Shown: piece after piece, positions 27,075-29,742 of the stretch
Numbering within the stretch: position 1 is the stretch's first letter
Layout of the letters: every line of letters starts with the position of its first letter
Origin: Azospirillum thermophilum
GTDB taxonomy: Bacteria > Pseudomonadota > Alphaproteobacteria > Azospirillales > Azospirillaceae
Assembly (NCBI RefSeq): GCF_003130795.1
Contig: NZ_CP029353.1
Span: forward strand, 2,247,501 to 2,311,500
Direction: 5' to 3'
Length of the DNA stretch: 64,000 nt
Notes under the pieces: model-generated
What the model was told of the DNA's origin: nothing
Seen by the model: the letters and a program-made list of their open reading frames with translations, nothing else
Databases searched by the model: none
Made by a program: the position numbers and the translations under genes

Positions 27075-27284
27075 ATGACCGACAAGACCCCCACCCCCGC
27101 CACCACTCCGCCCGCCGATCCGCAGGCGGATCCGAACCCTGCGGCCAAGGACGCCGCCGAAGCCGTGCCGGCCGGCACCCTGACGGGACCGGAGCAGAAG
27201 CCGGGCGAGATCGGCGGACCCAAGGGACCGGAACCGACCCGCTACGGCGACTGGGAGTTCAAGGGCCGCTGCTCCGACTTCTGA
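27075..27284 (+). CDS. DUF1674 (SDHAF4-like) protein
   Basis: A 69-aa protein whose C-terminus, [20 protein letters not shown] followed by SDF, is the diagnostic DUF1674 motif of succinate dehydrogenase assembly factor 4. In eukaryotes SDHAF4 binds flavinylated SdhA and protects it before complex assembly; a bacterial homologue is expected to do the same. The N-terminal half is Pro/Ala-rich and probably disordered. The start is ATG 27075, or ATG 27066 three codons earlier; neither has a strong ribosome site. Its last 26 bp overlap the convergent MBL gene. Confidence 0.87.
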
Positions 27285-28128
27285 GATCCGGCCCCTCGGC
27301 CGGGCGCCGGGCGAAGCGGGCGAGATCCTGCGGATCGTGGGAGCAGAACAGCCGGACCTCGCCGCCATGGTCGCGGACGAGGCCGCGCAGCCTGTCCTGG
27401 TTGGCGAGACGGGCGGCCCGGTCGCTGTCCATCATCCGCTGATAGGCCCGTGCTCCCGGCGGGCACCAGGGGCGGTCGGGATCGACCTCGCGATGGAAGA
27501 AATAGGCGTCGCCGGCGTGGAGCAGCCAGCCCCCGCCGTCGCGCACCGCGACGCCGCAATGGCCCCAGGTATGGCCGACCAGCGGCACCAGCAGGATGTC
27601 CGGCGGCAGCCCCTTGAGGTCGCGCACCGCGTCGAAGCCGAACCAGGGCTCGCCGCCGGCCTCGTAGGCCTGCCAGTTCACCCCCTCGTCCCACTGGAGC
27701 GGGCGGTAGCGCCGCGACCCGGTAAAGCCCTGCCGCCGGGTCCGCGCCGCCTCCAGCTCGCGGCCGAAGACGTGGACGGTGGCGTTGGGGAAATCTTCGA
27801 TCCCGCCGGCATGGTCGAAGTCCAGATGGGTCACCACGATGTGCCGCACGTCGGCGGCGTGGAATCCCAGCCGCTCCACCGCGCGCAGCGCCGTGTCCTC
27901 CTCGCGCAGGCGGATGCGGTCGAGCGCCAGGAAGAAGGCGCTGAGCCGCGGCAGCGGCCGGCGGACGTCGCCCAGCCCGAAGCCGGTGTCGACCAGCACC
28001 AGCCCCTGCGCCGTCTCGATCAGCAGGCAATGGCAGACGAGATGGGCCGACACTCCGCGGCTGGTGCCGTCCATCAGCCAGCCGCCGAACGGGCACATCG
28101 TCCCGCAGTTCAGATGATGGATGCGCAT
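27259..28128 (-). CDS. MBL-fold metallo-hydrolase
   Basis: A 289-aa cytosolic protein starting MRIHHLNCGTMCPFGG. The metallo-beta-lactamase fold is shown by the metal motif HLDFDHAGG (HxxxDH-type variant, residues near 107-115), LVGHTWGHCGVAVRDGGGWL (third His) and LHAGDAYFF. The layout resembles lactonase or glyoxalase-II-like hydrolases of the AttM/AiiB type, but the substrate is unknown. The start is ATG at 28128. A 29-aa ORF with a perfect ribosome site lies 185 bp upstream on the same strand and may act as its leader. Confidence 0.88.
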   Translation of the reverse strand: MRIHHLNCGTMCPFGGWLMDGTSRGVSAHLVCHCLLIETAQGLVLVDTGFGLGDVRRPLPRLSAFFLALDRIRLREEDTALRAVERLGFHAADVRHIVVTHLDFDHAGGIEDFPNATVHVFGRELEAARTRRQGFTGSRRYRPLQWDEGVNWQAYEAGGEPWFGFDAVRDLKGLPPDILLVPLVGHTWGHCGVAVRDGGGWLLHAGDAYFFHREVDPDRPWCPPGARAYQRMMDSDRAARLANQDRLRGLVRDHGGEVRLFCSHDPQDLARFARRPAEGPDLRSRSSGP

Positions 28129-28247
28129 GTCCACCCGCCCCGTTGTCCGCAGTCCAGACGAGAACAGCGGCCGGGGACGGCCATTCCCGGGGATGGCCGT
28201 TCCAGGTGGGCTTTGCCGTGGGCCATGGCCATGGTAAGGTCGCGGGC

Positions 28248-28418
28248 AAGGAGGTGACGCGCCGTCCGGGCTCCTGAGGTGGGGCCGGTTTCCCGACCCC
28301 ACCCTTGCGGTTCCTAGCTGTCCCCGGTCCTGTTGAAGCCGGCTTCGAACTCGATCTTCAACCGGAACCAGAAACGGCGGAACCACTTCAGGTAGCTTTT
28401 CAAGCGCGTCACCTCCTT
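28248..28418. repeat. 15-bp inverted repeat containing Shine-Dalgarno and anti-Shine-Dalgarno
   Basis: AAGGAGGTGACGCGC (28248-28262) is the exact reverse complement of GCGCGTCACCTCCTT (28404-28418). A further hairpin GGTGGGG...CCCCACC lies between them near 28278-28304. On a minus-strand transcript the right arm is the ribosome site of the 29-aa ORF and the left arm is its complement downstream. The rest of the 540-bp gap (28129-28668) contains no other credible gene. Confidence 0.75.
28314..28403 (-). CDS. Candidate 29-aa small protein, TTG start
   Basis: A short ORF behind an ideal ribosome site, AAAGGAGGTGA, eight bases before TTG at 28403. It encodes (M)[17 protein letters not shown], then a C-terminal part ending NRTGDS, and stops at TAG 28316-28314. 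The first half is basic and aromatic and could form a membrane-binding amphipathic helix. It lies upstream of the MBL hydrolase gene on the same strand, so it may be a leader peptide or an independent small protein. Translation is inferred from the exceptional ribosome site only; no homologue is recognised. Confidence 0.5.
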
Positions 28419-28668
28419 TCGCGTCGTCCGGGAACGGCCCGTCCGACCGGAGCAGGATATTGGGGCGGCCGGCCGCGGGCCAGCCGGAAAAGAGTACATC
28501 CGCGTGTCGACTCGCGCTTGTGGACGCGTGCCGGGCGGTGGAGTTCGCCCGGTTCTCCGCGCCCCCCCCGCAAGTGGTGGCGGACGCCCCTGGGGAGATT
28601 CGACGGACGGGCAGACCCGCGCGTCAAATCGATTCCGATTTCGCGCGATCCGCTCTAGGGTTGCCGGC

Positions 28669-29742
28669 ATGATCGTTCTTGGACTCGAAACGAGCTGCGA
28701 CGAGACGGCGGCCGCGGTGGTGACCGACGCGCGGGAGATCCGCGCCGACGTCGTGCTCTCCCAGCTCGACGACCACACCCCCTATGGCGGCGTGGTGCCG
28801 GAGATCGCGGCCCGCGCCCATCTGCAACATCTCGACGGGCTGATCCGCCGCGCCATGGCCGATGCCGGAATCGGCTTCGGCGACCTCGACGCGGTGGCGG
28901 CGACCGGCGGGCCGGGGCTGATCGGCGGCGTGATCGTCGGGGTGATGACCGCCAAGGCCATCGCCGCGGCGCGCGACCTGCCCTTCGTCGCGGTCAACCA
29001 TCTGGAAGGCCATGCGCTGACCGCCCGGCTGACCGACGACGTGCCCTTTCCCTACCTGCTGCTGCTGGTGTCGGGCGGCCATTGCCAGCTCCTGGTGGTG
29101 GAGGGGGTCGGGCAGTACCGGCGGCTCGGCACCACCATCGACGACGCGGTGGGCGAGGCGTTCGACAAGACCGCCAAGCTGCTCGGCCTCGGCTATCCCG
29201 GCGGGCCGCTGGTGGAGAAGGCGGCGGCCCGCGCCGCCAACCCCGGCCGGTTCGAGCTGCCGCGCCCGATGATCGGGCGGCCGGGCTGCGACTTCTCCTT
29301 CTCCGGCCTGAAGACGGCGGTGCGCCGCCATGTCGAGGAACTGGGCGGCCGGCTGACCGACGCCGACCGCGACGACCTCGCCGCCGCCTTCCAGGCGACG
29401 GTGGCGGAGGTGATGGCCGACCGCTGCGCCCGCGCCATGAGACTGTTCCGGCAGGCCCACCCGCAGGGCGGCGCGCTGGTGGTGGCCGGCGGGGTCGCCG
29501 CCAACAAGGCGCTGCGCGCCCGGCTCGCGTCGCTGGCGGAGCGGGAAGGGATGCCCTTCGTCGCGCCGCCGCTGCGGCTGTGCACCGACAACGCGGCGAT
29601 GATCGCCTGGGCGGGGATCGAGCGGCTGCGCCGCGGCGAGACCGACCCGCTGAGCTTCGCGCCGCGCCCGCGCTGGCCGCTCGACCCCTCCGCCGCGCCG
29701 GTGATCGGCCGGGCCGGGGTGGGGTCGGGCGTGAAGGCCTGA
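28669..29742 (+). CDS. tsaD: tRNA N6-adenosine threonylcarbamoyltransferase TsaD
   Basis: A 357-aa ASKHA-fold enzyme that transfers threonylcarbamoyl to A37 of ANN-decoding tRNAs (t6A). Motifs: [14 protein letters not shown] at the N-terminus, iron-site [11 protein letters not shown], the nucleotide loop [33 protein letters not shown] and [13 protein letters not shown]. The start is ATG at 28669; the frame is open further upstream but without family similarity. The C-terminal 20 residues extend past the E. coli length. It is followed 11 bp later by a GNAT gene, then gpsA. Confidence 0.97.

Follow-up and report, generated by a model that had tools for sequence, protein, structure and literature searches.

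The question raised by this locus is whether a very short reading frame, whose ribosome site has its exact complement further down the same strand, serves the neighbouring hydrolase gene or forms a unit of its own. The locus lies in a window of 64,000 nt (the whole stretch of DNA that was analysed) of Azospirillum thermophilum (GCF_003130795.1, NZ_CP029353.1, positions 2,247,501-2,311,500 of the forward strand). On the minus strand, the Shine-Dalgarno (SD) sequence AAAGGAGGTGA is located at 28419-28409 and is followed by a TTG codon at 28403-28401, which stands 8 bases past GGAGG and 5 past the whole motif; the open reading frame (ORF) extends over 28403-28314 and consists of 29 codons and TAG. 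The SD arm AAGGAGGTGACGCGC (28418-28404) has an exact 15-nt complement at 28262-28248 on the same strand. The ribosome site, the ORF and the exact complement were described in the original prediction, and all three were confirmed. Apart from the two arms, the 64-kb window has no exact 15-nt inverted pair whose members lie 60-200 nt apart; such pairs numbered 0.08 on average in 50 Markov-simulated windows, 3 of which had any. The elements of the locus are as follows.

28454-28482, minus strand: candidate sense promoter, weak (TGGCCC-17-TATCCT; score 6.4, shuffle p ~0.09)
28420-28449, minus strand: 5' hairpin just ahead of the SD, from the fold of the window RNA
28404-28419, minus strand: 5' arm, the SD arm AAAGGAGGTGACGCGC, whose pairing with the 3' arm is kept in 40 of 40 copies
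28314-28403, minus strand: 29-aa ORF with TTG start, found in 31 of the 45 genomes of the genus
28278-28303, minus strand: hairpin of 11 bp with a GNRA loop (GAAA), between the stop codon and the 3' arm
28248-28262, minus strand: 3' arm, the anti-SD GCGCGTCACCTCCTT, identified by its complementarity to the SD arm and by covariation
28213-28240, plus strand: candidate antisense sigma70-like promoter TTGCCG-16-TAAGGT, pointing into the unit, with an expected start at ~28246-28248
27262-28128, minus strand: MBL-fold hydrolase gene (fold name as in the original prediction), a neighbour outside the unit

The GAAA-loop hairpin at 28303-28278 is a third element, which was absent from the original prediction. 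A second inverted repeat, GGCCATCCCCGGGAATGGCC, is located at 28198-28179 on the minus strand, between the 3' arm and the start of the hydrolase gene.

The unit, about 300 nt long, occurs in 40 copies in 31 of the 45 genomes of the genus Azospirillum according to a peptide profile search, including a second copy in the genome of the window. The copies were gathered by peptide similarity and not by pairing, and the register of the arms in each was the best-matching one downstream. The named records with copies cover 21 loci, 19 of them in Azospirillum and two on contigs of a single strain that bears the label Roseomonas genomospecies 6. Two copies are present in 9 of the 31 genomes, and in 2 they stand in tandem, about 350 nt apart (L011/L037 in G020 and L025/L036 in G009). 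The ORF is intact in 35 of the 40 copies; the other 5 carry a GTA start, a GCG start (twice), one stop and one frameshift. The search of relatives for conservation of the ORF and of both arms, which had been suggested as a check, thus gave a positive result, with the pairing kept in every copy.

When flanks of about 1.4 kb were compared, the 40 copies were found in at least 11 unrelated genomic contexts, with large groups sharing a position, and the neighbours in seven loci inspected by eye look like ordinary cellular genes. The flanks of the window copy match those of none of the other copies. The second copy in this genome has one mismatch in its SD arm, and, since the promoters in the window are also weak, the copies of this genome may be declining. 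At the level of the class, the peptide search gave a match in G360 (E 6e-4). G028 and G075, one of them from another genus, also matched (E 0.06 and 0.07), but within frames of more than 1100 aa, and these two were discarded. Plasmid and phage records queried with one Azospirillum peptide gave no match, and the peptide profile search of viral contigs returned 13 stretches, 0 of which were confirmed.

In all 40 copies, 14-16 positions of the SD arm are paired with the 3' arm when G.U is allowed, with no internal mismatch in 36 copies and one in 4 copies; the first outer pair of the arms is formed in only 20 of the 40. Over 27 pairs in the 40 copies, 97.3% of the cells are paired, compared with 38-49% in slid registers. 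The arms show compensatory changes of the types C-G/U-A and C-G/A-U/U-G. At the start codon, the first base varies as U.G, G-C and U-A, which indicates that it changes jointly with the 3' arm. The covariation score reaches 0.232, compared with 0.145 for shuffled alignments, and none of 500 shuffles scored as high. Two weaker measures count against it: two-sided pair changes number 7 compared with 4.9 after shuffling (17 of 500 as high), and further pair types are not above the shuffles (315 of 500 as high). RNAalifold applied to the alignment returned the same long stem unprompted.

The hairpin loop is a GNRA loop in 39 of the 40 copies. Among the 440 cells of the hairpin there are 65 G.U mismatches and 2 A.C mismatches on the sense strand, which indicates selection on the structure of the sense RNA. 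The RNA of 28455-28247 has a predicted folding energy of −127.4 kcal/mol, compared with −85.7 ± 4.7 for shuffles (z = −8.9). In 7 of 7 folded copies, with an assumed start, the predicted openness of the SD is 0.10-0.74 when the 3' arm is left out and 0.00 when it is included. The 5' hairpin is also present in single-sequence folds of other copies, at −7.9 to −24.1 kcal/mol, and is weak in some. The conserved SD/anti-SD structure is therefore very well supported, and SD sequestration in the primary transcript is predicted on the basis of covariation and folding. The proposal that long-range pairing within the transcript could mask its ribosome site is consistent with the conserved pairing, the covariation and the model folds alike.

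The consensus of the copies is a peptide of 29 aa that is basic, aromatic and strongly amphipathic, and its 29 codons, conserved among the copies, fall within the size range of type I toxin ORFs (<60 codons). The earlier description of a basic, aromatic peptide like no described family agrees with these results: the peptide is conserved, and searches of Pfam, NCBIfam and PHROGs with three Azospirillum peptides were negative. Three peptides likewise had no match in PADLOC, and among the other payload peptides described below, 5 searched against NCBIfam and 2 against PHROGs had none. For the ORF, dN/dS amounts to about 0.52-0.54, compared with 0.58 and 0.59 in two other frames; this is not distinctive and is a point against the explanation favoured below. 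As dN/dS alone is too weak, a substitution-matrix test was added for 36 distinct sequences, leaving out three copies with an indel or stop. The sense frame was the most conservative of the six, at 1.23 BLOSUM units above expectation with the next best at 0.67, values given here as a ranking only. An ORF on the antisense strand was also considered and rejected: no ATG, GTG or TTG lies 4-12 nt past GGAGG in the 39 of 39 copies having GGAGG (L034 is without it), 13 copies have an ATG merely 2 nt past it, and the antisense frames score lower.

For the promoters, approximate sigma70 matrices were used, both for the 40 copies and for the XRE genes described below. The best sense site ends 34-40 nt ahead of the SD arm in 35 of the 40 copies, mostly with better hexamers than in the window. 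The antisense sigma70-like promoter scores at least 8 in 38 of the 40 copies, mostly with a spacer of 16; that of the window, at 8.2, is the weakest of the 38. The antisense promoter ends at a distance of 5-6 nt from the 3' arm, which would put the start of an antisense RNA at this arm. In 17 representatives, the antisense motif is conserved at TTG, TGn, TA and the last T, and the hexamers hold 1.23 bits per position compared with 0.71 in the spacer (including TGn), where the register was set as one of three offsets per copy by best hexamer fit, a choice that favours the hexamers. A strict consensus scan of both strands of 28000-28700 gave no sigma70 promoter and no intrinsic terminator, which makes the promoter case weaker at the copy of the window itself. 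The accessible part of an RNA-seq study of A. brasilense Sp245 (PMC7685610) yielded no placement for the unit.

A covariance model of the unit detected further units that lack the Azospirillum peptide. Three of these, together with a degraded one, lie in Azospirillum genomes; two of the three adjoin terminase genes, and one is on a plasmid of Azospirillum sp. TSH58. A genome of another genus of the same family (G071) has a unit with the peptide LKKFLGWLRHLRIGFELRLTIQFDPTDEG, and the survey of 385 genomes of the class gave one unit in another family (G215, E 2e-9). The match L128 (E 2e-4 with the RNA model) was read as a degraded copy, and the weak matches L129-L136, which look like terminator hairpins or coding sequence, were dropped. 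The same layout was found in at least 7 viral contigs among at least 120 stretches matching a generic pattern, the best of which by helix length were inspected, and in the phage genome ctOK67 (MW202613.1), with peptides such as LKIRLTLTIRFRSWRITLTIS. In ctOK67, the unit strand is without an annotated peptide or XRE gene at this locus (L274), and hypothetical CDSs are annotated there on the opposite strand. The payloads of the phage-type units are other short peptides, mostly basic; among 17 peptides computed, only that of L284, MKLLKLATLVVLIFLAGTQTAN, resembles a plain hydrophobic membrane peptide.

In the 18 phage, prophage and other-genus members, which were selected for pairing, 11 of 11 core columns pair, and all four Watson-Crick types occur at one column. 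The SD core changes from A-U to G-C (GGAGG to GGGGG) together with its partner in 4 of the 18. The divergent neighbours of eight phage loci were compared with family libraries, and six of them (L281, L289, L292, L294, L297 and L299) are a terminase subunit or an HNH endonuclease; those of L284 and L296 gave no match (L296 in Pfam only). An A+T-rich version of the layout stands in the viral contig L288 upstream of position 1500, with the peptide VKKPRKIRVKVKFFGCTLKITIKL, shorter bulged arms and then an XRE gene.

An XRE-type HTH gene begins 16-20 nt past the anti-SD core in most of these relatives, the exceptions being G071 and the viral contig L167. One linked XRE gene matched HTH_3 in Pfam (PF01381, 30.9 bits, cut-off 23), and its NCBIfam matches to the MqsA-antitoxin and RstR models were both below the cut-off. 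Conversely, paired arms were found in 16 of 94 upstream regions of XRE genes (64 viral and 30 genome loci, with two contigs in both sets), which correspond to 14 different units and in which the XRE ATG follows the end of the 3' arm by 16-19 nt; in a stricter test the counts were 16 of 94 compared with 4 of 1880 shuffled regions. After removal of 11 seeds and known loci, 5 of 83 remained with paired arms. XRE genes of two Devosia plasmids, one Pectobacterium and one A. oryzae plasmid had no SD-type paired arms. Among eight inspected upstream regions of XRE genes without paired arms, four (the viral L301, L307, L316 and L326) have a GGCGGGGGAAAGGATCAGCAAACCCCCGCC-like hairpin with AAAGGA in the loop, about 20-25 nt ahead of the XRE gene.

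The antisense promoter of the Azospirillum copies sits where the XRE gene of the phage form starts (ATTACCATG-N12-TTCAAG), and for this reason the stand-alone Azospirillum copies look, at the level of sequence, like units that lost the XRE gene. The positions kept after such a loss are promoter-type and not start-codon-type. The antisense-promoter score averages 8.45 in XRE genes with a unit and 4.2 in those without (n = 16 and 52, p = 1.4e-4), duplicates and loci without an ATG at the match start having been left out. High scores also occur in a number of viral XRE genes without a unit; this, and the origin of the antisense motif from the start of the XRE gene, count against the explanation favoured below.

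The association with a downstream gene exists for the XRE gene in phage-type units, and it fails for the MBL hydrolase, for which the original prediction had regarded the segment as a possible leader or switch. The hydrolase gene begins 120 nt past the 3' arm on the same strand, which would suit such a role. However, at E ≤ 1e-20 the gene is present in 5 of the 45 genus genomes, and the 560 nt upstream of it in the other four hold the end of an acs-like gene (by eye) and no unit; the flanks of the window copy are unlike those of any other copy, and the phage form usually has an XRE gene next instead. A function as a hydrolase leader is therefore extremely improbable. The XRE linkage leads to another reading, in which the unit is a phage regulatory switch without a toxin. 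The peptide would serve the adjacent XRE repressor as its leader peptide or antirepressor, and a 3' arm released from the peptide SD could pair with the SD of the XRE gene. The excess of paired arms upstream of XRE genes (16 of 94) argues for it, as do palindromes seen by eye at the sense promoter in several loci. This second pairing proves little, because any SD can pair with an anti-SD. The Azospirillum copies retain the peptide and the RNA without an XRE gene, and in L284 the payload is quite different although the XRE gene stays alike. We consider a switch of this kind unlikely, if still worth serious attention.

Two further readings take the arms as the primary feature. The long inverted repeats about 140 nt apart, in at least 11 contexts and up to 2 copies per genome, would suit a miniature mobile element in which the arms are terminal inverted repeats of the DNA and the ORF is incidental. 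Against this stand the strand-specific mismatch bias of the hairpin (65 G.U and 2 A.C) and its GNRA loops, by which the strand symmetry fails, the promoter-like sequence conserved at fixed spacing outside the arms, the conservation of the ORF in frame, and the large copy groups that share a position, so that a mobile element is very improbable. In most copies the 3' arm reads TCACCTCC followed by T, which we take to resemble the end of the 16S rRNA. The unit could then be a regulatory RNA, with a copy of the 16S rRNA tail as a 3' arm that captures other ribosome sites and with the peptide as a secondary feature. However, the arm departs from the 16S sequence together with its partner (CGCAACACCCCC in ctOK67 and GCGTCACCCCC in L257), and the peptide frame is conserved; a regulatory RNA of this type seems improbable.

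The explanation that we favour, with somewhat better than even confidence, is a self-silencing mRNA for a small cationic amphipathic peptide, similar to those type I toxin mRNAs in which the 5' and 3' regions interact over a long distance. It builds on features established by sequence comparison, namely the conserved pairing, the sense-strand structure, the ORF, the antisense promoter motif and the XRE linkage. Two findings count against a toxin mRNA: 14 of the 45 genus genomes are without the peptide, and the Azospirillum peptide, being basic and amphipathic, is unlike a plain hydrophobic membrane helix. According to this explanation, the transcript would begin at the 5' hairpin and carry the perfect SD, and the finished 3' arm would zip onto the SD as far as the start codon, which would turn translation off. 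Translation would be possible only from the nascent RNA, or following trimming of the 3' end or unfolding. A putative antisense RNA starting from the 3' arm would pair with the mRNA as a second layer of control, and the peptide, once made, would most likely act on the membrane, presumably as a toxin. In phages, an XRE repressor at the promoter would probably add a third layer, and the Azospirillum copies would be stand-alone descendants without the XRE gene. Palindromes such as GGCGAAATGATTTCGCC and CATACTCAGTATG, seen by eye at or near the sense promoter in L125, L127, L206, L151 and L236, are perhaps XRE operators. Other palindromes were seen by eye near the sense promoter of Azospirillum copies.

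To a broader reading, which has to be taken as a whole, we give roughly even credence. In it, the units would be peptide modules of a hitherto undescribed class that came from phages and was domesticated in Azospirillum, with exchangeable payloads on a fixed RNA chassis and with control by XRE at the level of transcription and by self-sequestration at that of translation. The chassis would consist of the SD arm, the tetraloop hairpin, the anti-SD arm and the antisense promoter; the payloads would mostly be basic peptides of 20-35 aa with a beta-type amphipathic pattern, one being plainly hydrophobic. The units would often stand beside phage packaging genes, and the start of the lost XRE gene would survive as the antisense promoter.

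Among known systems, hok/Sok encodes Hok, a membrane protein of larger size whose gene is overlapped by the mok frame; no overlapping mok-type frame was noted in the unit. The likeness to hok/Sok lies in the inert mRNA fold and the sequestration of the SD by a downstream anti-SD, as described in PMC6733600. The same paper counts a non-translatable primary transcript among the major hallmarks of type I TA loci and describes for aapA/IsoA of Helicobacter pylori a 5'-3' interaction combined with a cis-antisense RNA (PMC6733600). Like the unit, aapA/IsoA encodes a small peptide, masks the SD of the full-length mRNA by a downstream anti-SD and has several chromosomal copies, while its cis-antisense RNA has only a putative counterpart in the unit (PMC6733600). 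Unlike aapA/IsoA, the unit has an arm of 14-16 paired positions that reaches the start codon, a GNRA hairpin beside the 3' arm, and phage relatives with an XRE gene; its peptide is another one and a putative toxin, the likeness being one of architecture. The linked gene, by its match to HTH_3, resembles XRE phage repressors and the HTH antitoxins of type II systems. In contrast to type II systems, the partner of the XRE gene is a peptide of 20-35 aa on a self-pairing RNA and not an enzyme-type toxin.

A self-sequestering small-peptide mRNA with a putative antisense RNA is therefore a kind that is already known. The peptide family, the XRE-bearing phage form and the payload exchange were not found in the family libraries and literature searched. 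In Rfam, at the gathering score, the window gave no match except a tRNA, and no description of the peptide or the RNA was found in literature from which subscription papers and preprints were largely absent.

Peptides of such length are usually missing from genome annotation, so that loci of this kind are easily missed. With this unit, an architecture of type I-like form is seen in a genus of Alphaproteobacteria that lives with plants. It comes in 40 natural variants with clear covariation and has a phage form with a repressor gene, so that compensating changes in the arms would be a direct test of the long-distance-interaction model. It is also a case in which the payload peptide appears to be swapped while the RNA control frame stays. 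A paired SD and anti-SD around a hairpin could serve as a search key for further hidden peptide genes. In the 385 class genomes, the generic pattern matched in 12, with none unit-like among the matches listed. In the viral contigs L189 and L239, repeated short ORFs, VKSVFHKISVACELLKFAEIF and VKGVFHKFSVACKRLEFCKKFLKVA, are accompanied by inverted repeats of the SD/anti-SD type at a distance of about 96 nt, and their peptides are unrelated.
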